The notes beneath the pieces were generated by a model. The model did no database searches, was not told where the DNA came from, and was given only the letters and a program-made list of their open reading frames with translations. Positions 46,557 through 64,000 of a stretch of 64,000 nt of DNA are shown here, one piece after another. A program made the translations under genes and the position numbers. The stretch comes from Shewanella violacea DSS12 (lineage in GTDB: Bacteria; Pseudomonadota; Gammaproteobacteria; Enterobacterales; Shewanellaceae), in NCBI RefSeq assembly GCF_000091325.1, contig NC_014012.1, forward strand, positions 1,922,001-1,986,000, read 5' to 3'. Numbering within the stretch: position 1 is the stretch's first letter; each line of letters begins with the position of its first letter.

Positions 46557-49500
46557 ATGTTTTCAAGGATGCGAATTTTATTTATTGGATCTCTGCTGAT
46601 ATCGCTCGGGTTAATACCCGCAGTGGCAAGTGCAAGTGATCTCGTTACATTCGAGTTATCGACCGGCTCCAAGGTTTATGATAACGAGTTAATAATGAAA
46701 TATGACTTAGTCGTCACTAATAACGGCGGCAAGCTGGTGAAGGGACTCTCGGTGACAGCCGGACTGCTTGATATCAAGACGTCTGACATCAATGGCAACC
46801 CTGTTGATGCCTTTACGAGTGTGTCTGTCGATGCGACGGCAACGGTAGGCTCTCAAGCCGGGGAGTTCAATTCCCACGGAGACTTGAATGCTAAGCAGGT
46901 CACGTTAGCCGAAGGTGGAGTGGTGACTTACCACATAAAGGCTAAAGTAAGCCCCACGGCCGCACAAGAGATAGAGGTGACCGCTCAATTAACATCAAGT
47001 TTTCTCTCCCTTGAATCCAATTCGGTCACGACCCCGAGAGCACCTTATGAGCTCGACGTGATTAAGAGTGCAGACAATTTGCTTTACTCCCCCGGCGGTA
47101 AGGTCAGTTTTACCATCAAGGTGAGTAACACGGGTCAATGGAAGATTCGTCATGCCCTTGTTGAGGATAACTTATCTGGTATCACAGCCGAAGACATGGA
47201 AGGCAATACTATACCGGCCTTTAGCTCTATCGATAATATTACGGCGACGACTCAAGGTAAGGGTTCTAGTGGCGGGGTATTTGATGCCCATGGCCCAGAT
47301 TTACAGGCTAAGGACGTAGTTGTCGCTAAGGGAGGCTGGGTCGAATATCGAATTACGGCCACAGTCGCAGACACATTAATTGGCGATATTCTTAACTACG
47401 CCGAGGCTACGGCCCATGATGACTCAACACTTTCGAATCCAGTCGTTATTGAGCCTGAAGAAGCTAATGTGGTTATCACCAAGCAGGTAAGCCCAACCGC
47501 AGACTATCAGGTCGGAGATACACTCACATATACGATAAAGCTTGAAAACACTGGCTTAGGTATAGCGAATCATTATCAGGTAGAAGACAAGATAAATGAC
47601 ATAGTCGTCGATCTGGCTAATAACGATTTGGCTGAATATAACCACATTAATGTTACTGCTAGTCCATTTGAGACTTGGCAGATAGAGGTGAAGGATCTTG
47701 GCTCTCACAGTCTGTCTGAATTTATGGCCTCAGGCGGCACATCATCGAATAATGACCTTAACGATCTGATCAGCCTCTACCCGAATGAGTCGGTGACTTA
47801 TATTATCACTGCCACATCTAAGGCCGTGGCCATATCTGATATTACAAATACAGCCTCTGTAAACTCAGATTCTACTGTCGAGAAAACGGCGAGTGCCACA
47901 GTGACCGCATTGGCTACCATCAAAGATTTCACCGCCCACAAGTCACCCAATGGCACTGAATATATGCCGGGCGATTGGGTAAGCTACACCATTGAGGTGA
48001 GTAACACTAACGCGACTCAGTTCGCGGATAATATTAGTTTAACTGATAAGATTGCGACCTGTAACACCACAGAACTTGTGGATGGCTCTACTGGTTCACC
48101 GTTTGAGAAGTGGAAGCTCAGCGTCAAGAGTGTCGATGTGGAGGGCAGCGATCCCGGCAGTTTCGCCTTTGGCGTCGAAAAAACAGGTGATATCGATCTA
48201 GTATTAGACTTAGCGCCAAAAGGTAAGGTGGTTTATCAACTGGATGTGTTAGTTAATCCTGATGCTATCGGAACCATAATAGATAACCCAAGTTGTGATG
48301 ATACCGTTCCCGAAGACGGCTCTGGTATCAATATGCCAGATGGTAAGGTTGAGGTGAAGAAGCTGGTTGATCAACGTGAGTTTGCTCCCGGTGATGACTT
48401 AACCTACACAATAACCATTAAAAACTCGGGTAAAGGTTACCTGCATAATGTACCTGTAGTCGATGCAATTTCGGCCATCACAGCAGATGGCGTCACAGGT
48501 TCGGCATTTACAAGTTGGACTATCACTACCAGCGTCACCGACAGCAGTGGCGCACCATCAAGCCACAGTAACCCAGATCTTGACGGAAGCATTGCTGCAG
48601 ATAATGATCTCGATACCCATGCCAATGTGTTCCCCGGTGACACCATCACTTATACCATAGTGGCCACCACCAAGAACACCATCACAAGTATAGTCAGAAA
48701 CAAGGTAATGGTTGACGGCAGTGCCTATTCTGATGTTGGCGCCGAACCTTACAAGTACGATCTTTCCGTGGAAAAAACCGTGGATAAAATTCGCTACACA
48801 CAAGGCGACGATACTCTTAGGTATACCATAGTAATAAGCAATGCCGATATTGCCGGTTACGCTAAAGATATCCCGGTATTCGATGATATTGCCGGCATTC
48901 AGGCCGAACTTCTGCATCAGAAGGGGGAGATGGCGCCAGCGTTCGAGTCATGGACCATCACGGCCGCCCTTGACGGTAGGCCCAATCAAGACTCGGGCTT
49001 ACCAGGTAATGTCTCAAGCAATGTTAATCTAGACACCAAGTTCAGTCTCGCGGCGGGGGGCACGCTCACCTACACCATAGAGGCCAAAATACCTGAACGT
49101 ACTCAGGACCATATCGTCTGGGGGCACATAGTCAATAATGTGGTCGTAGATAAAACTGAGACTGCATCGGCAGAAAGTTATTATAGATTACCCAATCTAG
49201 TGGTAGATAAGCAGGTTTCTGAGACAAACTATACGCCTGGAGATACAGTCTCATACACGATAACCGTGAAGAATATCGGTGCAGGATATGCTAATAACAC
49301 AGATGTAAAAGATGATATAGCCGCCCTAGGCCTGTTCAACCACTGGACTGTAAAAGATGAGTCCTTTGGTATAGGTAGTCGCATCGTGGGCGGTAAGGTT
49401 GCGGATGATAAAAATATCGATACCAAGGTGGATATCGCCCCAGGGGGAAGAATTGTCTTCGTCATCACAGGAGTCGTGGTTAATAACATACACGGTCAGG

Positions 49501-52500
49501 TGACAAACACGGTAAAGGTTCATGAGCCTCTGGATAACAGAGACAGTGAGTCATCGGCGGATATTTTTCCTATCACAGATCCAGAACTGCCTAGTGTCGA
49601 TATACACAAGGAGTCATCACCGTTGCATTATAGGCCTGGGGGAGTTCAGACCTATACCATCACGGTGAGAAACGACAGCGATGTTCTGGTTGAAAACTTG
49701 CGGGTATTCGATGGGATGTCTGCAATCGAGTCGACCTTAGCGAACGATAAAGATAATCATTTTGCCGATATTGTCGGTAGCCCGTTCGAAAGCTGGACCA
49801 TAGAGTCAACGAGTAAAACCTTAGCGAAAAACAGCACAAGTGCCGATCTCGACGAGGTGATAACGCTGGCACCTAATTCATCTAAGGTCTACACCATAAA
49901 AGCCATCATCAAAGATAACGTGGTTGATGAAACTGTGACTAACCGTGTGTGTCTGTTCCGCGAGAATGGTGATGATGCCGGTTGCGCCGAGGCAGAAAAC
50001 CACAGAGAAATGTCAGGTGGAGAAGTGGTGCGTGAAGTCTTCCCGGCTAAGTATAAGCCAGGAGATACCATTACCTATAAGATCACCGCAAGTTCCAAGT
50101 TAGGTTATTACAACAACATCCACATTCTGGATGAGCTGGAAAATCTCAGTGTCGATCTGATAGATAAAGACGGCAAACACACACAAGGCCATCCTTTCAA
50201 TGACAAGTTTAATGTTGATGTCACCAAAACCACTCTCAATGGCGATGGCACGACCGATGGCACATTAGACGGTCAGGTGGAAAACAACAAAAACTTAGAT
50301 ACCACGATAGATGTTGGCCCAGGTGACAAGGTGGTTTATACCATTACTGGTGTGGTACGAGATGACGCCGCCGGTGACATCATCAATGGCGAGCTAGTGG
50401 TTAAGCCCTTTAAACCTAACTGGGATTACAGTAAAGAGTCGGACAATAAAAACTATCAGCCGGGTCAGACTCTGACCTATCGCCTGTCGATCAAGAACAC
50501 GGGTAAGGGACATGCAGTAGGCATCAAGGTTCAGGATTTGCTGAGCGAGGTGATGGTCGATGATATCAAGGGGCGTTCGGTGAAGGCCTATGAATCTTGG
50601 TCTTTCACTAAGGTTAAGCAAAAGCCAATCGCGACAAATTCCGCGACTGGGGCAAAGCCTGAGTTTGAACTGTATTACAATGCTGGTTCTTATAGTGATA
50701 ATAACGATCTTGATACCGAGATTAACTTGCCAATTGGCGGTGAGATTGTTTATACCGTGGTGGCTAAAGTCATAGACAGAGCCGAAGGTGAGATAACCAA
50801 CGTACTTAAAGTTAATAACGATACTACCAGTGTCAGTCACTCCCAGAGCACAGAAAACTATAAGCTGACTAAGCAAGTCATTGGCTATTTCGATGCAAGT
50901 CACAACAAGCTCAGCGGTGAGGGATACACTCCCGGTGGCTATGTGGCCTATAAGATCCGCGTGGAAAACAGTGGTAAGGGCAGCATACAACAGCTAAAGG
51001 TCGTTGATGATCTTGAAGGCGTGACAGCTGCTTGGTTCGACGGCAATACAGGTCCTGTGTTCGAGAGTTGGACTATTAAGGCTAAAACCGATGGTGGTAT
51101 GGTGTCCAATTATGGCGTATTCACTGCCAATAATAATATCGATACCTTAGTGGATATTGGCACCGGTGGCTATGTCGAGTACTACATCTCGGCCAAGATC
51201 AATCAAGAGGTAGTTGGTGATTTTCATAATAGTGTAACCGCGGGAAGAACCACTAAAAACAGTGAAATATCTGTGATGCAGCAAGCTCAATTTAGCTTGA
51301 GTAAAATTGCCTATTCGGATGCCTTGTTCACTAGTCGAAAGAGCGATTATGCCCCCGAAGATAAGGTCTTTTACCAGATTAAGCTGGAAAACAAGGGCTG
51401 GGGCACGGTTTATGCGGTGCATATTAGAGATATGCTCAAAAATATTAAATCGGAAATAGCGGAAGACACCTTACCAGCTGGATCTTGGGTTACGGCGGAG
51501 CCGTTCACTGAGTGGAAGGTCACGGCGCATTATACTCCGGGCCGAGTCACTAACATTGGCGGTTTCAGTGATGGTGACAACATAAATATCGACACGGATT
51601 TTGATCTGGCACCCAATGAAGCTATCGAGTTCAGCGTCGAGGCTAAGTTGGATTATGTCGTGCTGGGCGAGGTCAGGAACCATGTGGAAGCAGCCAGCGA
51701 AAAGAAGAATGCAACGCTTAAGGCTCAGGTAAAAGATATCAGCCACAGCAAGGTTATCACCAGTATTGGTGGTAAGCCTTATCAGGCCAATAGCCATTAT
51801 CGCCCCGGCGATGAGGTGGTATATACCATCAAGATCACCAACAATCACAATGCCTGGGCCAACAATGTGGCTATTAAGGACAAGATTGGCGACATCAAGA
51901 CCTTGCTTGCCGGTGGTAGTCGTGGTCAGGCGTTTAGCAGCTGGCGTGTCGAGTATGAAGTTGCCTCTGGTAGCGATAGCCGTACCGACACTCAGGTACC
52001 TGTAAATTCAGCCGATAGCGATATCGATTTCATCACAGATATCGGACCTTTAGATGAGATAACCATACGCATCACAGCTGTGATCAAAGACACGGCAACC
52101 GGTGATGTAGACAGTAACCATCTGCTGGTGGACGGTAACACCGACGCCACTCAAGTGATCCCACCTTTTGCGCCTAAGTTGACCTATGGCAAGGAAGTCA
52201 TCAAGACCTCGGCCGATGGAAATGATAAAACCGAATATGCGCCTAAGGGTGAGGTGAAGTATCGCGTATGGGTGAGTAATAGTGGTGAAGGTTTTGCCCA
52301 TGATCTGCTAATCACTGACCCTATCGACAAAATCGTTTCCGCCGATGGCCAGAAGGCCTTTACTGCATGGTCTGTAGAGCAAGATCCAAAGTTTGCTCCT
52401 GTCCTGTCCGTTGTGACTGGTGATATCAGTGGCAATGTGCCTCTTAATGCCCATGGGGATATCGCGCCGGGAGAAACCTTGAGCTTTTTTGTCACAGGTA

Positions 52501-55500
52501 AAGTGGCTGGAGATGTAACGGGTTTAGTGCGCAATACTCTGTTTGTTAACGATGCAGATGTTGCCCATGTGGATCTCAACTCTGGGGTGATGAGTATCAC
52601 CTCAAGCAAGCATACAGATACGCCAAATTATACGCCGGGAAGTGAGGTCAGATTTCAAATCGAGATCACTAACACCTCAGATTCTATCGCTATCGTGCCG
52701 GTGGAGGATGATCTTAATGCCATCATGGTCATGACGGCCGATGGCACCATGCAGCCTGCACTGACCGATATAGTGATCAGTGCCAGAGTGGTGGGCGATA
52801 AGGTTAACTCACAAATACCAGCTAGCTTAGGCACACCGGGTAAGCTCAATACTGAGATAAGAATTGCCGCCAGAGATTCGTCTGCGACGCCGGTGAATAC
52901 CAGCATCATTTTCGATATCAGCGCCAAGGTTAACGACAGCGCTGTAGGAGAATTCACCAATACCGCAAGCATAGATGACAAAGACTTTGGGCTTATCGAA
53001 GGTAACATCAAGCCCTTGCCTGCAAAAATCAGCTTAGATGAACATGCCATCAAGGTACCCGCTGTCTATGCACCAGGGGAGAGCATAGGTTTTGAAGTTG
53101 TCATCAAGAATATAGGTTCAGGATATGCGCTCAATACTGAGCTGGCTAACCTTCTGGACAAAACCACAGCTTTTGCCGCGGGAAGCACTGACAAGGTGCG
53201 GGTATTTGATAAGTGGGACAAGGTAACTGTAACAAGCAGCTCTAGCCTGACCACTATTATTGCCGGTAAGGAGCTCAATAATAGTGAAGGCTATTTCAAT
53301 GAGTTCAATATCCACCCTGGCGACTCTGTGACCTTGCAGTTATTTGGTACCGTTAAGCCAGAGATATTAGGCGACATAGATAATATGACCCAGGTCACTC
53401 AGGGTAATAATATCTTAATGGATGACGCGATTTATACGCCGGTTGAAGGTGAGTTGCTCATCTTGAAAACCGCAGATAGTCCTACTTATCTTCCTGGAAA
53501 CAGGGTCGGCTATAACATCAAACTAGAGAACCGTGGTGACGGTTGGTTAAATGATGTGAAGATATCTGATTTGTTGTCCGATATCGAAACGGAACTTGCT
53601 GGCGGCATTACCGACAAGGCATTTGTGCCGTCGAGCATGGTGCTGGACTCTGTAGTTTCGACGCCATTGGTACCAGGAGACTTAGGTGATATAAAAGTTG
53701 TAGATAACCAGCTTATCGGCACCGCCGATATCGCTCCGCACCAGGTCATCAACATCCGTTTTAGCGCCGAGGTTAAGGACACGGCTCTTGGGGAGATAGT
53801 CAATATCGCCAAGGCAAATGAGCTTAGCTCTGAGATTGCGATTAATCCACCTGTGGCAACAGTTAAGTTGAGCAAAACCGTTGGCAAGCCTACTTATATG
53901 CCAGGTGAACTCATCACTTATACCGTGACAGTGGCTAATACCAGCCAGACATGGGCAAATGATGTGGAATTGGTTGACGATCTCGCCGGTATCATGACCG
54001 AACAGGCGGGTGGCGCCATGGTCAATGCATTTGTTCCAGGCACATTAACGGCGACCAATACCAGTACTGTTGAATTGGTGAAGATGCAGGTTAAGGATAA
54101 TCGCCTCAGCGCGACCATGGACATAGCTCCCATGAGTGAAGTGAGCTTTACCCTAGAAGCTAAGTTGCAAGACACCATTTTAGGAGAAGTGACCAACATA
54201 GCCAATCTTGGAGATCAAGATGCCTCGGCCGTGATAACACCTCAAGATACCCCTAAGGTGCAGATAACTAAGCTGGCCAATAACCCTATCTATCTACCTG
54301 GAGGGCTAGTTACCTATACAGTTACGGTAAAAAATAACGCCGATACTTGGGCCAATGATGTTCAGGTGTCTGACGATCTGGGCAAGATAACCACAGAGCA
54401 TGCCAGTGGCGTGACTTTTGACGCGTTTGTCAAAGATAGCCTGAGCGTGACCAGTGACAGTAAGCCTAATCTTATCGAGATGACAATCTTAGATAATAAG
54501 CTCACGGCTCAGGTCGATATCGCGCCTAAATCTGAAGTGAATTTCACCATTCGCGCCAAGCTTAATAACACAGTGCTAGGAGAGATAGTCAATACAGCCA
54601 TCGCCGATGGCAATGAAGCCGAAGCTAAGATTAATCCGGCTCCGAGTGAGGTGGAGATAAAGAAAACCGTCAGTCATGTGAGGTACATACCTGGTGGAAT
54701 GGTGACTTATCAGGTGACTGTGAGTAACACGACAGAGGCTTGGGCCAACGATGTCAGCATTGTAGATGACATGTCCGCGATAACCACTCAGCTTGCTGGC
54801 GGTATTCCTGGTAGTTCAGGTTTGGCATTCGTGGCGAATTCTATGGTGGCAAACCATGATACTAGACCTGAATTGGTTACTATGTCGGTGGCGAATAATA
54901 AGCTCCAAGCCAGTGCCGATATCGCGCCAATGACGGATCTGGTCTTTACCATTAAGGCTTTGCTCGTGGATACTGCTCTGGGTCCGGTAATTAACCAGGC
55001 ATCTGCCGATGGTAAAACCTCAGATGTGATGATAACCCCTGTGGCTAATCCGATTCTAAGCCTGACTAAAACGGTATCTAAACCTACCTATTTGGTGGAT
55101 GAAGATGTGGTTTATACGGTAACGCTAATCAATGCCGGCGACGCTTGGGCTCATGATGTCCAGCTTGAAGATGACCTCAATGCTATCACCACAGAGCTTG
55201 CTGGTGGAGAGATGGGCACGCCATTTGTCGATGCTAGCCTAGTGGTCAGCCATACCAGTAAACCTGAACTGATTGTACTGGGTACTGAGCCCAATAAACT
55301 CAGTGCACGTCTGGATATAGCCCCTCACAGTCAGGTGGTGTTCACCTTGACAGCCAAGATGAAGTCTTCGGCTCTAGGAGAAGTGGTCAACACGGTAACG
55401 GCGGACGAGGAAACTGCGGGCGTGAGCATATTGCCCGAGGATGCAGATCTTATCTTCACCAAGTCGGTGGATAAGGAAAACTATTTACCTGGTGATCTGC

Positions 55501-58500
55501 TGACTTATACCTTAGTTATCGAAAACAGAGGCTTAGGTTGGGCCAATGATGTACTGATCCAAGATGCTATTGCCGGTATCAATACCGATCTAGCCGGTGG
55601 CCTCAATGGCCAGGCTTTTGTGCCTGGTTCTTTGGAAGTCACTCACGATAGCACTGATGAATTGGTACAGATGGCTCTAGACGGTGGTGTATTAGTGGCG
55701 CATGCCGATATTGCCGCCAATAGCAGTTTGACCTTTGTCATTAAGGCGCAGCTTAAAGATACAGCCCTAGGCGAGGTGCTCAACAAGGCATCGGCTAATG
55801 ACCTCAATGATGAGGCATTATCGATTCCTTCTAAGGCGACTGTTACCTTAGTCAAAACCGTAGATTCTCCCGTTTATCAAGATGGTGGCAAGGTGACCTA
55901 TCACCTGACATTAACCAACCAAACCGATGCTTTCGCTCATCAAGTTAATCTCAAAGATATGATCAAAGAGATTAAGGTGCTGACCATAGATGGCGTCGAG
56001 GAGAGAGCGTTTAAGTCATGGGAATATAGTTACCAGTCTGGTGATAGTAATACCAGCGTGGTGAGCCAATCACGTAAGAGAAGTGATAGTGCGAACAATA
56101 CTAATATCGAGGTCATGATCGATTTGGCACCGAAAGATACTTTAGTGTTCACCGTAGACGCAGTCGTACGAGACGATGCCGTTGGCGAGATAAGCAACAC
56201 GGCAGATATCAAGTTCGATGGTGCTCATCAGGAATCAAATGTTGTCATTAACCCAGATGTTGCAGTGCTTGAGTCGGAAAAAGTCAGTGTGGAAACTGAA
56301 TATGTACCCGGCGAGACTCTCAACTTCACTCTTACCATGAAGAACACCTCTAATAACTATATCTTCGATACGCTAGTGTCTGACGATATGTCGGCGATAC
56401 AAGTTGAGTACGCCGATTCAACTCTGGGTGCGGCATTCGTACCAGGAAGTTTGAGTTTCACCCCGAGCGAGATAGGCAAGGGCAGCAGTGCTAAACCTAC
56501 CTCAAACAGTGAATATGAGGTGGATATCGCACCTGGCAGTGAGATTATTTTCAATGTCAGTGGCATTGTGAATGAGAATGCCGTGGGAGATATTCAAAAT
56601 ATCGCCCAGGTAGATGGCGAAGAGGTTGAAAGTAATCTGGTTCCAACCGCTGTGGCTAATGTCGTGGGAGAGCTGTTCACTCGTGCGCAATATTATGTAC
56701 CCGGCGAGCCAGTTGAATATCACCTGGTGTTGAAAAACGAAGGTCAGGGCGTGGCGAAAGATGTCTATCTCTTGACCCAGTTTGCTAAATCTACGGGCAC
56801 TTGGATTAATCAAGAACAGGGATTGGCATTCGACAGTTGGACCATAAGTGCAGCAACAAGCGGTAATAACACCACAAGCGGTGAATTTACCGATAACGAG
56901 GATATCGCGACTAAGCTCAATATCGCCCCGGGTGGCAGTGTGGATTTCACCATCACGACCACAGTGGATCTGGATATGTTGACCAATATCGACGTATATG
57001 GTTTCTTCCTCGGCTCAACTTATCATAAGTCTCTTAAAGTGAATCAGAGTATTGATGGGATTGGAGGTGCAGACAAATTATCATATCTGGATCTTCCGCC
57101 GGTAGGTGCCAAGATGCAGGTAGAGAAAACCGTAGAGAAAACCAACTATATCGACAGCGATACCCAAGTTATCTATCACTTGAGTGCTGTCAATATTGGT
57201 GAGGGCAACGCGCCTTTGGTTAACTTGTTCGATGATATTGCTGGTTTGAATAGTCCAAAGGGAATCGATGTCTTCACCGATTGGAGCATAGAGGGAACTG
57301 AGTATGAGGGCAGCAGTGTGGTTGACCAGTTTACTCTCAAGGGTGATCAGCTCAACAAGCATAATCTGAATATTCAGAGAAACTTTAAGTCTAAGGGAAG
57401 AAGTCGGATTGAGTTGGTGATCAGCGCGACCATTGCCAAGCATCTGGATGATGATGTGACTAACACCTTTGTGGTGACTGAGCAAAACGGCACAGTGACT
57501 CAAGATGATGCGACCACACATATCAAGAAGATCCCGGACAATCAGGGCGAGCTTAAGATAACTAAGCAGGCTTCGAAAAACACGGCTCAGGTTGGTGAGG
57601 TGATAGAATATGAAATCATCATAGATAACGACAATGAATCCTACTTCAAGGATGTGGCCGTGTTCGATAAGTTGCCCGCTGGTTTCCGTTATCAGCTCGA
57701 TACCACAGAGATGACCCTGAGTGGTATAGATGGCAAGTTCGATACTCAAGACGATGTGGTTCTCACTAAACAACCAACACTGTCAGGTCAACTCAGGTTT
57801 GCCAATGTCGATTTTGAACCGTTCGAAAAGTTGCGGATCCGTTATCTGCTTAAGGTCTCAGTTGGAGTGACCTTCGGTAAATATATCAACACGGCTCAGG
57901 CGAAGATCAAGGGCGTTAATGTCTCTGATATTGCCACTGCGACGGTTGAGATTCAGGGTGATAAACTCTTCGATACCGCCTCTATTATAGGTAAGGTGTT
58001 CGAGGATATTAATGGTGATGGATATCAAGCCGATGCAGGTGCGTTCGACATCAAGGTGATGGCCGACTTACCAAGAGACGCTTATGTGGCCGACTCGACC
58101 AAGTTAAAGCTGACGGATAAGTTTGAGCCTGTCGATGACTTAGATGATGCTAGTGCTAAGATCTTGGCGCCGATTCAATCTGGAATCGAAATAGATAAAT
58201 TGATGGGACAGTCACGCAATCGCACTTTAGATGAATCTCATCTTGCGGTAATTCGTTTCCAGACCAGAACGCCTGATTCATTCCCGTTAACTCTCACCAC
58301 TGGAGAGGGAACACGAATCGAGTTTTCGTCTGAGGGACAAGTGACTCGTAGCCTAAACGGAGACGTGAAGACTGGCTTGTCGGCGGAAGTTATCAATGTT
58401 ACCCGTAACTTGTATCGCATCAAGGCTGTAGAGCCGCGTTACCTGTGGGAGATAGTCATAGATAACATAGGTGTCTATGAAGATGGTATTCCAGGAGCAC

Positions 58501-58784
58501 GTCTGATCACTACTGAAGGTATTAAGATAGAGACAGATGAGTTTGGTCGTTACCATGTACCAGATCAGTGGGTAACGGACAAGAAGGGTCGCAACTTCCT
58601 GGTAAAACTTGATAGTGATTCACTGCCTACAGGCATGAAGGTGATAAGCGAGAATCCTAAGGTTAAACGTATTTCGCCTTATGGATTAGCTAAATTCAAT
58701 TTCAGCGTGCAAGCAGCCAGTGTTAAAACCACTGACAACTCGGCTTCTAAGGCATCAGCCACGAAAAGCCAAGATACGGAATAA
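46557..58784 (+). CDS. Giant (4075-residue) exported protein of about 27 DUF11-like repeats
   Basis: A signal peptide (MFSRMRILFIGSLLISLGLIPAVASA) is followed by about 27 beta-sandwich repeats. Each opens with a Y-x-PG-x-x-(V/L)-x-YT-(I/V) block and TN/KN-x-G, continues to DDL-x-x-I, and closes with IAPG-x-x-(V/F)-x-(Y/F)-T-(I/V) and a GE(I/V)-x-N segment. The last repeat (about 3670-3800) looks most like classical DUF11/TIGR01451. The C-terminus has an SdrD_B-like unit (FEDINGDGYQADAG, later GIPGARLITTEGIKIETDEFGRYHVP), then a low-complexity Ser/Lys/Thr end. Repeats at about 2296-3090 have a near-constant ~131-residue period, suggesting recent duplication. No sortase, autotransporter or type I signal is visible. 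It heads a unit with a large beta-barrel protein and an OmpA lipoprotein; a surface filament or layer is the best guess. Confidence 0.85.
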   Translation: MFSRMRILFIGSLLISLGLIPAVASASDLVTFELSTGSKVYDNELIMKYDLVVTNNGGKLVKGLSVTAGLLDIKTSDINGNPVDAFTSVSVDATATVGSQAGEFNSHGDLNAKQVTLAEGGVVTYHIKAKVSPTAAQEIEVTAQLTSSFLSLESNSVTTPRAPYELDVIKSADNLLYSPGGKVSFTIKVSNTGQWKIRHALVEDNLSGITAEDMEGNTIPAFSSIDNITATTQGKGSSGGVFDAHGPDLQAKDVVVAKGGWVEYRITATVADTLIGDILNYAEATAHDDSTLSNPVVIEPEEANVVITKQVSPTADYQVGDTLTYTIKLENTGLGIANHYQVEDKINDIVVDLANNDLAEYNHINVTASPFETWQIEVKDLGSHSLSEFMASGGTSSNNDLNDLISLYPNESVTYIITATSKAVAISDITNTASVNSDSTVEKTASATVTALATIKDFTAHKSPNGTEYMPGDWVSYTIEVSNTNATQFADNISLTDKIATCNTTELVDGSTGSPFEKWKLSVKSVDVEGSDPGSFAFGVEKTGDIDLVLDLAPKGKVVYQLDVLVNPDAIGTIIDNPSCDDTVPEDGSGINMPDGKVEVKKLVDQREFAPGDDLTYTITIKNSGKGYLHNVPVVDAISAITADGVTGSAFTSWTITTSVTDSSGAPSSHSNPDLDGSIAADNDLDTHANVFPGDTITYTIVATTKNTITSIVRNKVMVDGSAYSDVGAEPYKYDLSVEKTVDKIRYTQGDDTLRYTIVISNADIAGYAKDIPVFDDIAGIQAELLHQKGEMAPAFESWTITAALDGRPNQDSGLPGNVSSNVNLDTKFSLAAGGTLTYTIEAKIPERTQDHIVWGHIVNNVVVDKTETASAESYYRLPNLVVDKQVSETNYTPGDTVSYTITVKNIGAGYANNTDVKDDIAALGLFNHWTVKDESFGIGSRIVGGKVADDKNIDTKVDIAPGGRIVFVITGVVVNNIHGQVTNTVKVHEPLDNRDSESSADIFPITDPELPSVDIHKESSPLHYRPGGVQTYTITVRNDSDVLVENLRVFDGMSAIESTLANDKDNHFADIVGSPFESWTIESTSKTLAKNSTSADLDEVITLAPNSSKVYTIKAIIKDNVVDETVTNRVCLFRENGDDAGCAEAENHREMSGGEVVREVFPAKYKPGDTITYKITASSKLGYYNNIHILDELENLSVDLIDKDGKHTQGHPFNDKFNVDVTKTTLNGDGTTDGTLDGQVENNKNLDTTIDVGPGDKVVYTITGVVRDDAAGDIINGELVVKPFKPNWDYSKESDNKNYQPGQTLTYRLSIKNTGKGHAVGIKVQDLLSEVMVDDIKGRSVKAYESWSFTKVKQKPIATNSATGAKPEFELYYNAGSYSDNNDLDTEINLPIGGEIVYTVVAKVIDRAEGEITNVLKVNNDTTSVSHSQSTENYKLTKQVIGYFDASHNKLSGEGYTPGGYVAYKIRVENSGKGSIQQLKVVDDLEGVTAAWFDGNTGPVFESWTIKAKTDGGMVSNYGVFTANNNIDTLVDIGTGGYVEYYISAKINQEVVGDFHNSVTAGRTTKNSEISVMQQAQFSLSKIAYSDALFTSRKSDYAPEDKVFYQIKLENKGWGTVYAVHIRDMLKNIKSEIAEDTLPAGSWVTAEPFTEWKVTAHYTPGRVTNIGGFSDGDNINIDTDFDLAPNEAIEFSVEAKLDYVVLGEVRNHVEAASEKKNATLKAQVKDISHSKVITSIGGKPYQANSHYRPGDEVVYTIKITNNHNAWANNVAIKDKIGDIKTLLAGGSRGQAFSSWRVEYEVASGSDSRTDTQVPVNSADSDIDFITDIGPLDEITIRITAVIKDTATGDVDSNHLLVDGNTDATQVIPPFAPKLTYGKEVIKTSADGNDKTEYAPKGEVKYRVWVSNSGEGFAHDLLITDPIDKIVSADGQKAFTAWSVEQDPKFAPVLSVVTGDISGNVPLNAHGDIAPGETLSFFVTGKVAGDVTGLVRNTLFVNDADVAHVDLNSGVMSITSSKHTDTPNYTPGSEVRFQIEITNTSDSIAIVPVEDDLNAIMVMTADGTMQPALTDIVISARVVGDKVNSQIPASLGTPGKLNTEIRIAARDSSATPVNTSIIFDISAKVNDSAVGEFTNTASIDDKDFGLIEGNIKPLPAKISLDEHAIKVPAVYAPGESIGFEVVIKNIGSGYALNTELANLLDKTTAFAAGSTDKVRVFDKWDKVTVTSSSSLTTIIAGKELNNSEGYFNEFNIHPGDSVTLQLFGTVKPEILGDIDNMTQVTQGNNILMDDAIYTPVEGELLILKTADSPTYLPGNRVGYNIKLENRGDGWLNDVKISDLLSDIETELAGGITDKAFVPSSMVLDSVVSTPLVPGDLGDIKVVDNQLIGTADIAPHQVINIRFSAEVKDTALGEIVNIAKANELSSEIAINPPVATVKLSKTVGKPTYMPGELITYTVTVANTSQTWANDVELVDDLAGIMTEQAGGAMVNAFVPGTLTATNTSTVELVKMQVKDNRLSATMDIAPMSEVSFTLEAKLQDTILGEVTNIANLGDQDASAVITPQDTPKVQITKLANNPIYLPGGLVTYTVTVKNNADTWANDVQVSDDLGKITTEHASGVTFDAFVKDSLSVTSDSKPNLIEMTILDNKLTAQVDIAPKSEVNFTIRAKLNNTVLGEIVNTAIADGNEAEAKINPAPSEVEIKKTVSHVRYIPGGMVTYQVTVSNTTEAWANDVSIVDDMSAITTQLAGGIPGSSGLAFVANSMVANHDTRPELVTMSVANNKLQASADIAPMTDLVFTIKALLVDTALGPVINQASADGKTSDVMITPVANPILSLTKTVSKPTYLVDEDVVYTVTLINAGDAWAHDVQLEDDLNAITTELAGGEMGTPFVDASLVVSHTSKPELIVLGTEPNKLSARLDIAPHSQVVFTLTAKMKSSALGEVVNTVTADEETAGVSILPEDADLIFTKSVDKENYLPGDLLTYTLVIENRGLGWANDVLIQDAIAGINTDLAGGLNGQAFVPGSLEVTHDSTDELVQMALDGGVLVAHADIAANSSLTFVIKAQLKDTALGEVLNKASANDLNDEALSIPSKATVTLVKTVDSPVYQDGGKVTYHLTLTNQTDAFAHQVNLKDMIKEIKVLTIDGVEERAFKSWEYSYQSGDSNTSVVSQSRKRSDSANNTNIEVMIDLAPKDTLVFTVDAVVRDDAVGEISNTADIKFDGAHQESNVVINPDVAVLESEKVSVETEYVPGETLNFTLTMKNTSNNYIFDTLVSDDMSAIQVEYADSTLGAAFVPGSLSFTPSEIGKGSSAKPTSNSEYEVDIAPGSEIIFNVSGIVNENAVGDIQNIAQVDGEEVESNLVPTAVANVVGELFTRAQYYVPGEPVEYHLVLKNEGQGVAKDVYLLTQFAKSTGTWINQEQGLAFDSWTISAATSGNNTTSGEFTDNEDIATKLNIAPGGSVDFTITTTVDLDMLTNIDVYGFFLGSTYHKSLKVNQSIDGIGGADKLSYLDLPPVGAKMQVEKTVEKTNYIDSDTQVIYHLSAVNIGEGNAPLVNLFDDIAGLNSPKGIDVFTDWSIEGTEYEGSSVVDQFTLKGDQLNKHNLNIQRNFKSKGRSRIELVISATIAKHLDDDVTNTFVVTEQNGTVTQDDATTHIKKIPDNQGELKITKQASKNTAQVGEVIEYEIIIDNDNESYFKDVAVFDKLPAGFRYQLDTTEMTLSGIDGKFDTQDDVVLTKQPTLSGQLRFANVDFEPFEKLRIRYLLKVSVGVTFGKYINTAQAKIKGVNVSDIATATVEIQGDKLFDTASIIGKVFEDINGDGYQADAGAFDIKVMADLPRDAYVADSTKLKLTDKFEPVDDLDDASAKILAPIQSGIEIDKLMGQSRNRTLDESHLAVIRFQTRTPDSFPLTLTTGEGTRIEFSSEGQVTRSLNGDVKTGLSAEVINVTRNLYRIKAVEPRYLWEIVIDNIGVYEDGIPGARLITTEGIKIETDEFGRYHVPDQWVTDKKGRNFLVKLDSDSLPTGMKVISENPKVKRISPYGLAKFNFSVQAASVKTTDNSASKASATKSQDTE

Positions 58785-58807
58785 GTAACCACCCCAACAT
58801 CAAGTAT

Positions 58808-58836
58808 GCCGATGGGATCACTTCCATCGGCTCTTT
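58808..58836 (+). terminator. Hairpin between giant gene and barrel gene (attenuator-like)
   Basis: A perfect 8-bp stem GCCGATGG / CCATCGGC with an 8-nt loop is followed by the weak U-tract TCTTTGTTGTT. It may reduce read-through and so set the ratio of giant protein to barrel. Confidence 0.6.
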
Positions 58837-58909
58837 GTTGTTAAGCGCCCCCGGATTTAGGCTTGGAAGCCTGCCGAGTTTGTGGGTGGAAAGCTAAAGG
58901 AATATATGC

Positions 58910-61900
58910 GTGAAAAAATTTAAATTAAATCATTTATCGTTAATGATCATCACTTGCCTGCCCTTGATGGCACAAGCAGGAGTCGACTCGAACAATCAAG
59001 TGTCGGCTAATCAAACTCCAGACAGTCAAACTCCGGCTAAGCAAGCTTCGGACAATCAAGTACCGGATAGTCGAATTTCCTACCGTCAAGTTTTGGCTAA
59101 GCCAACTCCGGCGAGTCAAACTTCGGTTAGTCGAACTTCCTACCGTCAAGTTTCGGGTAAGCAAGCTCCGGCTAAGCAAATTTCGGACATTAACACTCCT
59201 GCCAACTTTGTGTACACAGAGGTGATTCAGCCAGGTACAGAGCCTCAACGGGTTAAAGCGCCTGAGTCGGATAAACAAGCTCAGCCAGAGGATCTGGCTC
59301 TGGAATTGATTCAATCTGAGTCCACAGATCTTAAACAGACCATTCATGAGCAGACAGATAATTCACGTATCTATCTGGATGAAGGTGCCATCTGGGCTAG
59401 CCGTGACATCACTAAGGTCGACCCACAACTCGAATTGTCTGTCAGCGATGCCATCGAAGTCGATCAGGGCAAGATAAGTGACTCGGTTAGTTTTAATCTA
59501 GTGACTAACTATAGCTATTACATCAAACGTTGGCAGCTTGAAGTGTATCGCGGTAAGGACATTCACTTGAGCGAGCCACTCAAGGTATTAACCGGTGATA
59601 CCTTAAGTAATGAATTCGATGTTCAGTGGGATGGTGTTACAGATATTCCCTATGAGATGAAGAAGGGTCAACAACTCCTGTACCGCCTAAAATTGTGGGA
59701 CAAGGATGGCAACATGGATGTGACTTCAATAGGGGTGACAGATCTTATCCGTGGTTCACAAGAGGTGGAGATGGATAAGTTTGATCATCAGCAAGCCACC
59801 ACCACAGGAACTGGCTCTGGTGATACTGACACGGATAAAGGCTCACGCAGTTACGGCGTAGCGAAATTACTGCGCCATAATATTCCCACCTCGGCAGGCA
59901 TGGCAAAATTGATGGGCACGGGCCTTAAGGGAGTCGATCGCGTCTTTATTGGCGAAGATGAGTACACCATCGAAGATAATCGCCTCTATGTGGAACAGTA
60001 TCTGCCAACGGATGCCTATATGTTTCCGGTCAAGGTGAAGTATGACGATGGTCATGAGAGAAACTATAAGCTGTTTGTTCGTATTCCCGATACCTATTAT
60101 GCTCAAACGGCTCTGGCTGATCTGTATGTCGGTAAGAATCGTGTCTCGGGCAATAAAGATGTGTTGGGTGTTAACGACCAATATAAAGGGGACATCTATA
60201 ATCGAGGGCGCCTGGCCTATTTCGGCGAAGGTAAGTTTGGTGACAAGCTGAGAGTGGTGGCCCATGTGGATACCAAAGATCAAGAACTGAAAGATATGTT
60301 CAAGAATCCTTTCGCCTCGGATACCACCACAGTTTTCGATATTCTCGAGGACGATGATGAGCTTTATTACGGTAACTATGGTGACAATGCCAATATTCAG
60401 AAGGTGGTCAATACCAAGGGCAAGGTCTATCTGGATGTGCAATACGATAAATCCAGCGTCTTGTGGGGTAACTATAATACCGGGATCTCGGGTACCGAGA
60501 ATGCTCAATACAATCGTAGTCTCTATGGTTTCAGAGGGGATTACCGTACACGAAGCACCACAGAATTTGGTGATGACAGATTCAACCTAGTTGGATTTGC
60601 CTCACAGGCAGACAGTCTATATTCCCACGATGAGTTTCGTAGCACAGGCCTGAGTCTCTATTTCCTACGCCACGGAGAGGTACTCCCAGGTAGTGACAAG
60701 GTTGTGGTACGTCAGGTGGATGACCGCAACAACCGAATCGTCAATGAGGTCATACTTCAAGAGGGGCGTGATTACGAGTTTGATGCCTATCAAGGACGAA
60801 TACTCCTGACACGCCCGCTATCAGCCATTGCTGGTGACAGCTTTGGTAGCGTTATCTCGAATACACCTTCAGGGGATCTGAAAAACTATCTGGCTGTGGA
60901 TTATGAATATATTCCTAGAGGCACTGAAGCGCTGGAAAAGATGGCCATGGGCGGCAGGGCAAAAGGTTGGGTTAACGATCATATTGGTATAGGTGCCAGT
61001 TATGTGGAGGAGGAGAAGGAAAATCAGGATTATCAGTTAAGCTCGGCGGATCTGACCTTTAAACTCACCGAAGGAAGCTTTCTAAAGGCGGAATTTAGTC
61101 ACAGTGAAGGCACTCAGGCCGACAGTAACTTCGTTTCCGATGATGGTGGCCTGACATTCGAAGAGATTAGCCGGGTCGGTAAGACTCGTAAGGGCGATGC
61201 TATCTCCATATCCGGTGTCGCTAACTTGTATGACTTTATGCCAGAAACCTTCGGCGCCGTGGGTAACGATCTGCGTGTCTGGTATAAGGACAAGGATGGT
61301 GGTTACTCCTATGCAAGTCAGAATGACGACTTAGCCCAGACTTCCCTAGGCACAGAGTTAAGATTACAGACTGGAGAGGAGTCGCAACTGCTGGCCAGTT
61401 TCCAAACGATAGAGGAGACTGACCAAACGGGTAAAAAGGTCACAGATACTCAAGATGTGAAGCTAGAAGCTCAGGTCATGTTGACTGATCATATTAAGCT
61501 AGGTATTGCTGGTCAACAGATCCAAGAGCTGAATCAGAATGATGAAGAAAGTGATGCTAGCTTGCTAGGTGCCCGCCTAGAATATGTATTCGATGATAGT
61601 AATAATATCTACATCAAGGCGCAGAAAACCATAGATAGCAGCGATGGCTTCGATGAAAACGACAGTGCTTCTATCGGTGGTGAGGCCAAGATAACCGAAG
61701 ACTTGTCACTACTAGGTGAGTACACCACAGGTGATCGTGGAGATTCGGCTCAGGCCACAATCAACTATGATATCAATGATGATCACTCCACTTATTTGAC
61801 CTTAGTAAAAGATGATTATGAAGACAGTAATAATATCATCATAGGGCAGAGGGCCAGCCTGACAAGTAATCTGGACGGTTATCTGGAGAATAAGTTTGTC

Positions 61901-62752
61901 GATGAGAATAACGGCAAGGGCCGCATCGACTCAACAGGTCTGGACTATGATGTGAACCAAGACATTCGTGCAGGCATAGGCTATCAGCAAGGCTATATCG
62001 ATTACCGCGATGAAACAGATGTAAAGCGTACTGGCTATACGGCCTATATCGACTTTGATCAGGATAACTATCAGCTGGGTACTAAGTTTGAATACCGTGT
62101 GGATAAGGGCGAAGAGGAGATAGAGCAGTATGTGACGACCAACCACTATACTCATCACCTTACCGATGAATACACCTTGTACGCCAAGGTGAATTATTCA
62201 CGAACTAAGAATAAGACCACTAAGCAGCAGGTTGCTAAGTTTGTTGAAAGTTATGTGGGTCTGGCATACCGCCCTGTCTATAACGATAAGTTGAATTTCT
62301 TGAGTCGTTATACATACCTGGAAGATTTTGACAGTTTAGATAGAGATGTATCCTATACAGATGAAGAGAGTCATATCGTTGAAGCTGAAGGCATATATTC
62401 TGTCAATGCAAGAGTCGATGTCGGTGCCAAAGTTGCCTATAAGCATAAAAAAGAGAAGTTTAAGCGTGAGTCAGGCGAACTCTTCCCCGTTGAATCTAAA
62501 ATCTATCTGACCGGGCTTTCGGCATCATACTCTGTGATGAAGGACTGGGATGTAACTGGGGAATATCATTGGAAGAAAGATGATTCTATGGATGCTTTAG
62601 AGCAAGGTGCTTTAGTCTCGGTGAATAAAGAGCTTAGTGACAACTTTAAGGTTGGCATTGGCTATAACTTCTCTAATTTTGAAGATGACCTGGTCCATGA
62701 AGATGATTATGACGCAAAGGGCGTGTTTATCAATCTTGTCGGTAAGATCTAA
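58910..62752 (+). CDS. Large outer-membrane beta-barrel protein with N-terminal pentapeptide repeats
   Basis: This 1280-residue protein starts at GTG 58910, with AAAGG 9 nt upstream. Order of parts: signal peptide (to about 23); 13 pentapeptide units (29-93); a linker; a FlgD-Ig-like domain (about 170-290, WQLEVYRGKDIH, QWDGVTDIPYEM, LLYRLKLWDKDGN); a small domain (about 320-400, GVDRVFIGEDEYTIEDNRLYVEQ). Then comes a long run of amphipathic strands to the end, with EGRDYEFDAYQGRILLTRPL near 620-640. The ending FKVGIGYNFSNFEDDLVHED...GVFINLVGKI is typical of a barrel closing strand. It lies in the same unit as the giant repeat protein and an OmpA lipoprotein. It probably anchors or exports the giant protein, which is inference. 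I know of no characterised member. Confidence 0.8.
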   Translation: MKKFKLNHLSLMIITCLPLMAQAGVDSNNQVSANQTPDSQTPAKQASDNQVPDSRISYRQVLAKPTPASQTSVSRTSYRQVSGKQAPAKQISDINTPANFVYTEVIQPGTEPQRVKAPESDKQAQPEDLALELIQSESTDLKQTIHEQTDNSRIYLDEGAIWASRDITKVDPQLELSVSDAIEVDQGKISDSVSFNLVTNYSYYIKRWQLEVYRGKDIHLSEPLKVLTGDTLSNEFDVQWDGVTDIPYEMKKGQQLLYRLKLWDKDGNMDVTSIGVTDLIRGSQEVEMDKFDHQQATTTGTGSGDTDTDKGSRSYGVAKLLRHNIPTSAGMAKLMGTGLKGVDRVFIGEDEYTIEDNRLYVEQYLPTDAYMFPVKVKYDDGHERNYKLFVRIPDTYYAQTALADLYVGKNRVSGNKDVLGVNDQYKGDIYNRGRLAYFGEGKFGDKLRVVAHVDTKDQELKDMFKNPFASDTTTVFDILEDDDELYYGNYGDNANIQKVVNTKGKVYLDVQYDKSSVLWGNYNTGISGTENAQYNRSLYGFRGDYRTRSTTEFGDDRFNLVGFASQADSLYSHDEFRSTGLSLYFLRHGEVLPGSDKVVVRQVDDRNNRIVNEVILQEGRDYEFDAYQGRILLTRPLSAIAGDSFGSVISNTPSGDLKNYLAVDYEYIPRGTEALEKMAMGGRAKGWVNDHIGIGASYVEEEKENQDYQLSSADLTFKLTEGSFLKAEFSHSEGTQADSNFVSDDGGLTFEEISRVGKTRKGDAISISGVANLYDFMPETFGAVGNDLRVWYKDKDGGYSYASQNDDLAQTSLGTELRLQTGEESQLLASFQTIEETDQTGKKVTDTQDVKLEAQVMLTDHIKLGIAGQQIQELNQNDEESDASLLGARLEYVFDDSNNIYIKAQKTIDSSDGFDENDSASIGGEAKITEDLSLLGEYTTGDRGDSAQATINYDINDDHSTYLTLVKDDYEDSNNIIIGQRASLTSNLDGYLENKFVDENNGKGRIDSTGLDYDVNQDIRAGIGYQQGYIDYRDETDVKRTGYTAYIDFDQDNYQLGTKFEYRVDKGEEEIEQYVTTNHYTHHLTDEYTLYAKVNYSRTKNKTTKQQVAKFVESYVGLAYRPVYNDKLNFLSRYTYLEDFDSLDRDVSYTDEESHIVEAEGIYSVNARVDVGAKVAYKHKKEKFKRESGELFPVESKIYLTGLSASYSVMKDWDVTGEYHWKKDDSMDALEQGALVSVNKELSDNFKVGIGYNFSNFEDDLVHEDDYDAKGVFINLVGKI
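58994..59188 (+). repeat. Thirteen tandem 15-nt units (pentapeptide repeat)
   Basis: Thirteen consecutive 15-nt units encode pentapeptides of the form [SKNR]-[QRP]-x-[PSL]-x, for example NQVSA, NQTPD, SQTPA, KQASD and SRISY. Units 6-9 and 10-13 form a 60-nt higher-order duplication (SRISY RQVLA KPTPA SQTSV against SRTSY RQVSG KQAPA KQISD). No indel breaks the 15-nt phase. Confidence 0.95.
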
Positions 62753-62764
62753 GGAGGATCCGTT

Positions 62765-63358
62765 ATGCCAATATTCAACCATTTAATGTCGACATTAAGC
62801 ATCTCTTCACTGAGTACTTTGTCGAAAAAGTTAGTCTCAAAAGCATCAATGCAGAAAACGGCTTTGGTATTGATAACAGGCTTAAGTCTGGTTGCTTGCT
62901 CGACTCAGACTTATGTCAGTGAGGAAAACCTAGATAAGTTTGCCGGGATCAACGTAGAGAAGTTTTTGATAGCAGAAATTGTGACCGAGATTAAACAGAT
63001 ACTGCCGCCAAATAAGAAGGTCTTTATTTCGCTTATCTCCCATTTTGACTTTGATTCAAGTCTGCTCAAAGATGAAGATAAGATGGAGCTGGATAAGCTT
63101 ATTGCTCTGGTGAACTCACTGGACGGGAAATTGGTGATCAAGGGACATACGGATTACCAAGGCAGCAATGCTTATAATGAAAACCTGTCCATGCGAAGAG
63201 CTAGAACTATTCAAGATTATCTCGAAGGGCAATTAACCCAAGGCGAGTATGAATATTCTGTAGAGCATTTTGGCGAGTTGCAACCCATTATCGAGTCGCA
63301 CACCCTCCAGGCTAATGCACTGAACAGAAGAGCCATGGTGATATTTACCGAGAAATAG
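62765..63358 (+). CDS. OmpA-family lipoprotein, peptidoglycan-binding
   Basis: This 197-residue protein has a lipobox (LSLVACS) preceded by an unusually long N-region (about 28 residues before the MQKTALVLITG hydrophobic stretch). ATG 62765 is nevertheless favoured by a perfect AAGGAGG 7 nt upstream; Met29 (62849) has no Shine-Dalgarno. The C-terminal OmpA domain shows FDFDSSLLKDED, GHTDYQGSNAYNENLSMRRARTIQDYL (diaminopimelate-binding Asp and Arg) and NRRAMVIF. It would tie the outer membrane to peptidoglycan. Only 12 nt separate it from the barrel gene, so they are translated together and likely work as a complex. Confidence 0.92.
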   Translation: MPIFNHLMSTLSISSLSTLSKKLVSKASMQKTALVLITGLSLVACSTQTYVSEENLDKFAGINVEKFLIAEIVTEIKQILPPNKKVFISLISHFDFDSSLLKDEDKMELDKLIALVNSLDGKLVIKGHTDYQGSNAYNENLSMRRARTIQDYLEGQLTQGEYEYSVEHFGELQPIIESHTLQANALNRRAMVIFTEK

Positions 63359-63384
63359 AGCTGGGTATTAAGCACAAGCTAACT

Positions 63385-63421
63385 AAAGCCCCAGTAAAAC
63401 CACGTGTTTTACTGGGGCTTT
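63385..63421 (+). terminator. Strong terminator of the surface-protein operon
   Basis: A perfect 16-bp stem AAAGCCCCAGTAAAAC / GTTTTACTGGGGCTTT with a 5-nt loop lies 26 nt after the OmpA-lipoprotein stop. It insulates the rRNA operon. Confidence 0.95.
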
Positions 63422-63527
63422 ACTGTTTTAAAACTGGGGTTAGCCATGTTATTAGGTCGGGATTTGAACGTATTGTTTGATATGTGAGCGCTTGAGCGGT
63501 TTTTTGAAAACTATCGGATTAAAGGGG

Positions 63528-63884: not shown

Positions 63885-64000
63885 TAATTGAAGAGTTTGA
63901 TCATGGCTCAGATTGAACGCTGGCGGCAGGCCTAACACATGCAAGTCGAGCGGAAACAGAAAGTAGCTTGCTACTTTGCTGTCGAGCGGCGGACGGGTGA
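63885..64000 (+). rRNA. rrs: 16S ribosomal RNA, 5' end only
   Basis: AATTGAAGAGTTTGATCATGG and the following CTCAGATTGAACGCTGGCGG, GCCTAACACATGCAAGTCGA and GAGCGGCGGACGGGTGA are the universal 16S 5' segments. The V1 loop (GGAAACAGAAAGTAGCTTGC) is of the gammaproteobacterial Shewanella/Alteromonadales type. The gene continues beyond the window. Confidence 0.98.

Follow-up and report, generated by a model that had tools for sequence, protein, structure and literature searches.

We analysed a window of 64,000 nucleotides of Shewanella violacea DSS12 (NC_014012.1, positions 1,922,001 to 1,986,000; "the window" is this whole stretch, and coordinates count from its first base), taken from a genome that is one contig of 4,962,103 bases. 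Near its end, three genes in one orientation encode a giant repeat protein, an outer-membrane barrel protein and an OmpA-family lipoprotein (Table 1), and a 16S rRNA gene begins directly downstream of the trio at 63885 (window 63885-64000). An earlier note on this DNA, made from its letters alone, had proposed the trio as a surface system in which the barrel protein exports or anchors the giant and the lipoprotein tethers it to peptidoglycan. Its three open reading frames on the same strand are exact (4075, 1280 and 197 residues), its estimate of about 27 beta-sandwich domains agrees with 27 DUF11 repeats found by a profile built in this analysis, and the Sec signal it gave the giant can be read by eye. 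In Pfam searches the giant matches DUF11 (PF01345, E 4.4e-91) and the third gene OmpA (PF00691, E 4.1e-14); the latter product also has the lipobox LVAC, with Cys45 followed by Ser, and by eye GHTD and RRA residues, which together place it by sequence as a putative OmpA-family peptidoglycan-binding lipoprotein, as the note had it.

Table 1. Features of the three-gene locus, in window coordinates
Feature	Position	Strand	Remarks
Giant stalk protein gene	46557..58784	+	open reading frame, 4075 residues, 27 DUF11 (CLIPPER) repeats
Sec signal peptide of giant	46557..46634	+	26 residues, ends ...AVASA; by eye
Repeat array	47049..57917	+	residues 165-3787; Lys-Asp-Asn triad in 18 of 27 repeats
Tail domain	57945..58712	+	residues 3797-4052; SdrD_B/carboxypeptidase-regulatory-like; profile
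Hairpin between giant and barrel genes	58808..58831	+	terminator-like; -20.8 kcal/mol, z -3.60
Outer-membrane barrel protein gene	58910..62752	+	open reading frame, 1280 residues, GTG start
"Bridge" region of barrel protein	59366..60097	+	residues 153-396; beta-rich, presumed periplasmic
Predicted transmembrane barrel	60092..62749	+	about residues 395-1280; roughly 36-40 strands, AlphaFold2
OmpA-family lipoprotein gene	62765..63358	+	open reading frame, 197 residues; lipobox Cys45
OmpA domain of lipoprotein	63017..63346	+	residues 85-194; profile
Intrinsic terminator 3' of OmpA gene	63384..63422	+	17-pair stem; -32.1 kcal/mol, z -4.35

The gene set is a real, recurring three-part system. A protein search returned 61 relatives of the barrel, of which 55 share at least 51% identity with it, and those with names came from Shewanella, Photobacterium, Vibrio, Aliivibrio, Psychromonas and a Cellvibrionales metagenome-assembled genome; in two distant relatives (P0060, P0061) a single chain contains both DUF11 and barrel, and in one of these OmpA too. 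A scan of named genomes gave 313 barrel relatives, the best 80 of which were kept and yielded 77 loci spanning Vibrionaceae, Shewanella, Psychromonas, Kangiella, Lysobacteraceae, Orbaceae and Thiotrichaceae as well as Fusobacteriota, Campylobacterota and Desulfobulbaceae. Together with 40 regions picked from matches in an even sample of 397 Pseudomonadota genomes, these make up 117 loci, not independent of one another since some species occur in both sets (L028/L124, L039/L126), on which profiles built for tail, OmpA, DUF11, bridge and barrel were mapped.

Giant and barrel are consistently linked by a tail domain of about 250 residues at the C-terminus of the giant (signature ..TDEFGRYH..GRNFLVKLD..LP.G...SENPKV.R), which the earlier note had left unnamed. 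It lies in the gene upstream of the barrel (within 800 nucleotides) in 94 of the 117 loci and within the barrel chain in 18; reading assigned it in a further three (L061, L091 and L148, the last with its tail-bearing giant downstream of the barrel), for a total of 115. Of the two loci left without a tail, L056 lies on a contig that stops within the barrel and was covered over 8,970 bases upstream, and L082 has only 398 upstream bases, which carry OmpA. Among the 94 upstream cases, 82 have a gap of at most 50 nucleotides between tail gene and barrel and 25 an ATGA-type overlap of stop and start, and in some lineages all parts form one polypeptide in the order array-tail-OmpA-bridge-barrel. The earlier note had named the lack of a conserved neighbourhood in other genomes as what would speak against its proposal, and the neighbourhood is conserved. 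The co-occurrence check that it suggested gives the same picture when made with the tail: in the sample of 397 genomes, the window's own included, the barrel was found in 51 (E 1e-3) and the tail in 31 (E 1e-5), all 31 having the barrel where 4 would be expected by chance, a figure to be taken as a guide only because the genomes are related and some forms are one chain. Identity between the window and Vibrio relatives is about 60% for the barrel, 55% for the tail, 45% for the OmpA protein and 32% for the array; against S. benthica the corresponding values are 86%, 85%, 78% and 85%.

The barrel protein, with a Sec signal read by eye, reaches no Pfam or NCBIfam cut-off. Its score against DUF2490 is 22.8 bits (family cut-off 29.8), and the same family matches 12 of 21 barrels in Pfam (best E 1.4e-5), which we take to be generic barrel likeness. 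Against PDB sequences it gave only a chance-level match (E 0.19), and the barrel profile gave none at E 10; no TPS (two-partner secretion), POTRA, FhaC-type or SprA Pfam family appeared among the 21 barrels at E 1, nor any TPS, POTRA or Omp85-type family in the window's proteins at E 0.001. The AlphaFold2 model, built on an alignment of 59 sequences and superseding a first one from 21 (predicted local distance difference test score 69.3, predicted template modelling score 0.55), points to a closed barrel with some 36-40 strands, our count of about 40 coming from a DSSP list that is not coordinate-checked. Of the 51 strands in that list, only 25 are both at least 7 residues long and amphipathic by a crude test, which speaks against a simple count. 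The best structural match of the model (VIA, Foldseek) is SprA of type 9 secretion, aligned over 590-656 residues, as against about 270-355 for TonB-dependent receptors, but the root-mean-square deviation of this top VIA match is 13.7-13.9 A. As predicted, the barrel would presumably rank with the largest single-chain barrels.

The OmpA module moves about. It is a separate downstream gene in 45 of the 117 loci, the C-terminus of the giant in 35, the N-terminus of the barrel protein in 4 and part of one chain in 8, and it was not detected in 25, some of them cut by contig ends; the separate lipoprotein of the earlier note therefore stands for the window and is one arrangement among several. Where OmpA is on the giant, the giant usually breaks off behind the second helix of that domain; the barrel protein then has the remaining third downstream of its own signal peptide, and this third closes with an NRRVDV-like strand. 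A loose pattern, run with no control, finds this motif in 29 of the 35 barrel N-termini. With a profile made from 74 intact lipoprotein OmpA domains only, the last third (model positions about 75-110, more than 5 bits) was detected in 12 of 98 barrel N-termini and in 0 of 1960 shuffles, about half of the 98 coming from loci with OmpA as a separate gene; under a looser rule (score above 3 anywhere) the counts were 18 of 98 and 16 of 1960, and several two-gene barrels scored about zero or below despite aligning to the same region of the model. Some one-chain forms contain, at the split point within OmpA, a hydrophobic stretch that ends in AHA and resembles a signal peptide, most clearly in L061 and L084. 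Elsewhere in the same chains, 15-residue segments more hydrophobic than this stretch number 0 of 1167 (L061), 1 of 4281 (L084) and 5 of 1721 (L089); for L059 the number is 2 of 2030, the top segment being another than the stretch as read, and in L057 the position scored did not cover the stretch. It looks, from these sequences, as if gene fission or fusion ran through the OmpA domain, and the pattern suggests that giant and barrel protein may jointly complete one OmpA fold. In the window's lineage OmpA is a whole lipoprotein instead of a split domain. No standard OmpA was detected in one family of loci (L141, L143-L149), where the giant ends read by eye contain a degenerate OmpA-like half and an RRTDI-like strand occurs in the N-terminus of several barrels.

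As for the stalk, the giant consists of tandem domains of a family, DUF11, that is described as a stalk domain in the accessible part of PMC9210967. According to the portion of the report available (PMC12617251), the solved structure of an Acinetobacter silvestris DUF11 domain contains an isopeptide bond with a Lys-Asp-Asn triad; all three residues align in 18 of the 27 repeats here, which would allow most repeats to form Lys-Asn isopeptide bonds. In agreement with the earlier note, the giant gave no Pfam match to an RTX, sortase or autotransporter family, and likewise none to a YadA anchor, to PF03797 or to an adhesive family of the kind that fibrillar adhesins usually have N-terminally, the LapG motif itself not being searched for; neither giant nor barrel matched a PHROGs phage family at E 0.001. 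The arrays of nine giants from other lineages include Big_6, CshA repeat, SdrD_B, SpaA, He_PIG, Calx-beta, cadherin, GEVED and DUF7933, the CshA repeat and GEVED families being present in two (L062, L065), and a stalk that varies while its base (tail and barrel) stays constant is what would be expected of an adhesin display device. In some loci (L151-L155, L158-L163) one-chain forms of about 1600-2400 residues with few DUF11 domains lie beside at least one small DUF11 gene, possibly encoding stalk subunits. For V. parahaemolyticus, one DUF11 protein is counted in the available text of PMC8877628. A second DUF11 giant of the S. violacea genome (G000:C1, L010:3429-15677, plus strand, 4083 residues, with DUF11 and cadherin-like repeats) was considered as a paralogous system and rejected, having no tail, bridge, large-barrel or periplasmic OmpA match; its C-terminal part shows by eye a GlyGly-CTERM-like hydrophobic stretch followed by an OmpA-type membrane barrel (PF01389, E 2.9e-16).

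Given the conserved neighbourhood and the one-polypeptide forms, the three-part system is real and the exporter, anchor and tether idea of the earlier note a reasonable one, its surface location and its export through the barrel being the parts we can only infer. We think it probable that the three genes encode an envelope-spanning fibrillar adhesin complex, made up of a giant stalk, a dedicated wide barrel that serves as exporter or anchor, and an OmpA tether to the wall. The giant would enter the periplasm by Sec, where its Ig-type DUF11 domains would fold and most would staple themselves internally through a Lys-Asn bond. Domains stapled in this way cannot be threaded fully unfolded, and a wide pore would then be needed; they may leave through the dedicated barrel, which is predicted to be about as large as SprA, probably folded and N-terminus first. 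The C-terminal tail would stay in the periplasm and dock with the barrel protein, either at its bridge or at its N-terminal part, and the OmpA domain, here a separate outer-membrane lipoprotein, would fix the base to peptidoglycan, leaving a stalk of about 100 nm for adhesion or cell-cell contact. More tentatively, and with rather less confidence than an even chance, we hypothesize a new system for secretion and display at the outer membrane, with carriers in Pseudomonadota, Fusobacteriota, Campylobacterota and Thermodesulfobacteriota, in which an SprA-sized barrel of about 36-40 strands exports one folded, stapled giant N-terminus first while a peptidoglycan-bound OmpA handshake between two chains keeps the base, the N-terminal two thirds of OmpA coming from the giant and the last third from the barrel protein, and a separate lipoprotein taking this place in the window's lineage.

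The main difficulty for the export proposal is the one-chain order, which puts a periplasmic OmpA between array and barrel and needs an export route unlike that of a classical autotransporter: the C-terminus-first autotransporter route would pull OmpA out, so that the array must leave N-terminus first or as a loop, or stay inside. The last of these, in which the array remains periplasmic and the giant lies along the cell as an internal spacer or tether joining barrel, outer membrane and wall, also draws on the lack of any recognised export motif in the Pfam search of the giant. We nevertheless consider it unlikely: the array modules of other lineages are those of surface adhesins, a periplasmic array would leave a very wide barrel without a task, and arrays of up to 31 repeats (L141) far exceed the depth of the periplasm.

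It is also rather improbable that the barrel is an anchor only, the giant crossing the outer membrane by another route while barrel and OmpA hold its tail. No energy source was identified for export, the pairing of tail and barrel could be explained by anchoring alone, and on one plasmid the opposite strand has a type II secretion-like cluster at a distance of about 3 kb; however, no neighbouring family is shared by more than 15 of the 117 loci, and the barrel is predicted to be about as large as a known protein translocon. Less probable by far is an uptake receptor with the giant as its surface capture protein, as some relatives are named 'TonB-dependent receptor' in plasmid records and such receptors are among the structural matches, but they align over much less of the barrel than SprA does, and no TonB-receptor family was detected in it (Pfam, NCBIfam). 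That the trio are unrelated envelope genes, neighbours by chance, would fit the rarity of the barrel in Shewanella (3 of 36 same-genus genomes, own included, one match weak), yet with co-occurrence, adjacency and fusion across several phyla this explanation can virtually be set aside.

Within the locus, the barrel and OmpA genes are separated by 12 nucleotides with an AAGGAGG site, and the strong terminator that the earlier note saw after the last gene is borne out. The hairpin after the giant gene, which it called mild, is strong and itself on the list of terminator-like sites, and co-transcription of the giant with barrel and OmpA can therefore not be assumed. The scan that produced this list carries little weight, since its counts lie close to or under those of shuffles (18 terminator-like sites against 13.9 +/- 4.0; 22 promoter-like sites against 33.7). 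Clustering of 704 non-system open reading frames of at least 150 residues from the short stretches around the 117 loci gave no secretion partner among the neighbour families; the commonest, mechanosensitive-channel-like, occurs in 15 loci, all of Vibrionaceae type, and the largest exclusive to other loci, a hybrid histidine kinase, in 9. Relatives of an EAL-domain gene (cyclic-di-GMP phosphodiesterase; L142:16849-19203, with CHASE2) lie near the system in 12 of the 117 loci, 8 of Vibrionaceae type, a count made with no comparison to the genomic background, and possibly point to cyclic-di-GMP control. The homologues, all identified by BLAST with the EAL part of the L142 gene, are in L026, L030, L034, L035, L037, L040, L055, L063, L085, L130 and L158; a CHASE2 gene also adjoins the giant-barrel pair on an Eleftheria plasmid.

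The barrel is present in 4 of 60 relatives' genomes, own included, and in a quick tree the window and S. benthica adjoin Photobacterium inside an otherwise Vibrionaceae and Psychromonas group (support 98 and 100). There are matches in 22 PLSDB records, one of them a 2.06-Mb Vibrio replicon, and a Croceibacterium plasmid has the adjacent pair annotated as 'OmpA family protein' and 'hypothetical protein'; horizontal spread of the system is likely. Several of the nearest carriers, namely S. benthica, P. profundum, P. frigidiphilum and a Psychromonas (L017-L019, L046, L076), are cold or deep-sea organisms. Vibrio jasicida (L024, L035) has two copies of the trio near each other on one contig. In the near relative G010 (L012, L015; 92% identity) the barrel frame is broken near its 3' end into pieces 122-1223 and 1222-1280, which lie in separate frames, and in L023, L031, L033 and L051 the giants are split over several frames, in some with the barrel or OmpA gene split too, either by sequencing error or by decay.

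The earlier note knew of no named system with this trio. For barrel and trio this holds, in that word matching over open-licence PubMed Central found no recognisable description among the papers listed; giants of this type have been published as DUF11 or 'CLIPPER' adhesins, as far as the available text goes (PMC12617251). The stalk half is already known as fibrillar adhesins, and barrel, tail and wandering OmpA are, as far as this search shows, the new part. Of two leads in the literature, the exported R5.7/R5.8 of oyster-associated Vibrio, of unknown function, were dropped, being in the descriptions accessible a two-gene locus of the Splendidus clade as against a barrel found across Vibrio (PMC6246604, PMC8519021), and PMC3751524 was, in its accessible part, a false lead. 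Among the closest published systems are Gram-negative fibrillar adhesins with a DUF11/CLIPPER stalk, such as B9T28_05395 of A. silvestris, which has a C-terminal 'OmpA-like anchoring domain' (PMC12617251, available text). It has in common with the window's giant a long chain, a tandem DUF11 stalk and the Lys-Asp-Asn triad, but here OmpA stands apart as a lipoprotein and the tail forms the C-terminus of the giant, and the text available for B9T28_05395 names no barrel partner. Isopeptide-stapled stalks are known in Gram-negatives, and the barrel is a candidate exporter or anchor for such chains, with its own partner tail whose signature can be used to find further pairs.

SprA, the type 9 translocon, is in the accessible text a very large single-chain outer-membrane barrel of 36 strands (PMC10994853). 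The window's barrel may, by prediction, resemble it in this; no sequence relation was found (Pfam, PDB), however, and the presumed substrate here is a single cognate giant whose base is retained. In type Va autotransporters the passenger is N-terminal and the barrel C-terminal, an order shared by the one-chain forms; unlike them, the present system gave no match to a PF03797 barrel, has OmpA between passenger and barrel in several one-chain forms, most commonly consists of two or three genes, and has stalk domains with the isopeptide triad. Two-partner secretion (type Vb) has a TPS domain on the exoprotein and POTRA plus an Omp85-type barrel on its partner; the likeness is that the gene for a large exported protein adjoins its own barrel gene, whereas no TPS, POTRA or FhaC-type family was found here and the partner domain that is conserved lies at the C-terminus. 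Myxococcus TraAB, as far as the source at hand describes it, is one operon for a surface repeat protein (TraA, with PA14 and MYXO-CTERM) and an envelope protein with OmpA at its C-terminus (TraB; PMC3325183). The combination of repeat protein and OmpA-domain protein is similar, and the NCBIfam TraB match here reflects the shared OmpA domain only. RTX/LapA adhesins and intimin keep a long stalk at the outer membrane, the barrel of the intimin type being N-terminal, while the window's giant has neither an RTX family nor such an N-terminal barrel; their anchors are mentioned in the available part of PMC8286594. If the proposed complex is real, it would be a further class of export and anchoring, in addition to type V, type 9 and RTX adhesins.
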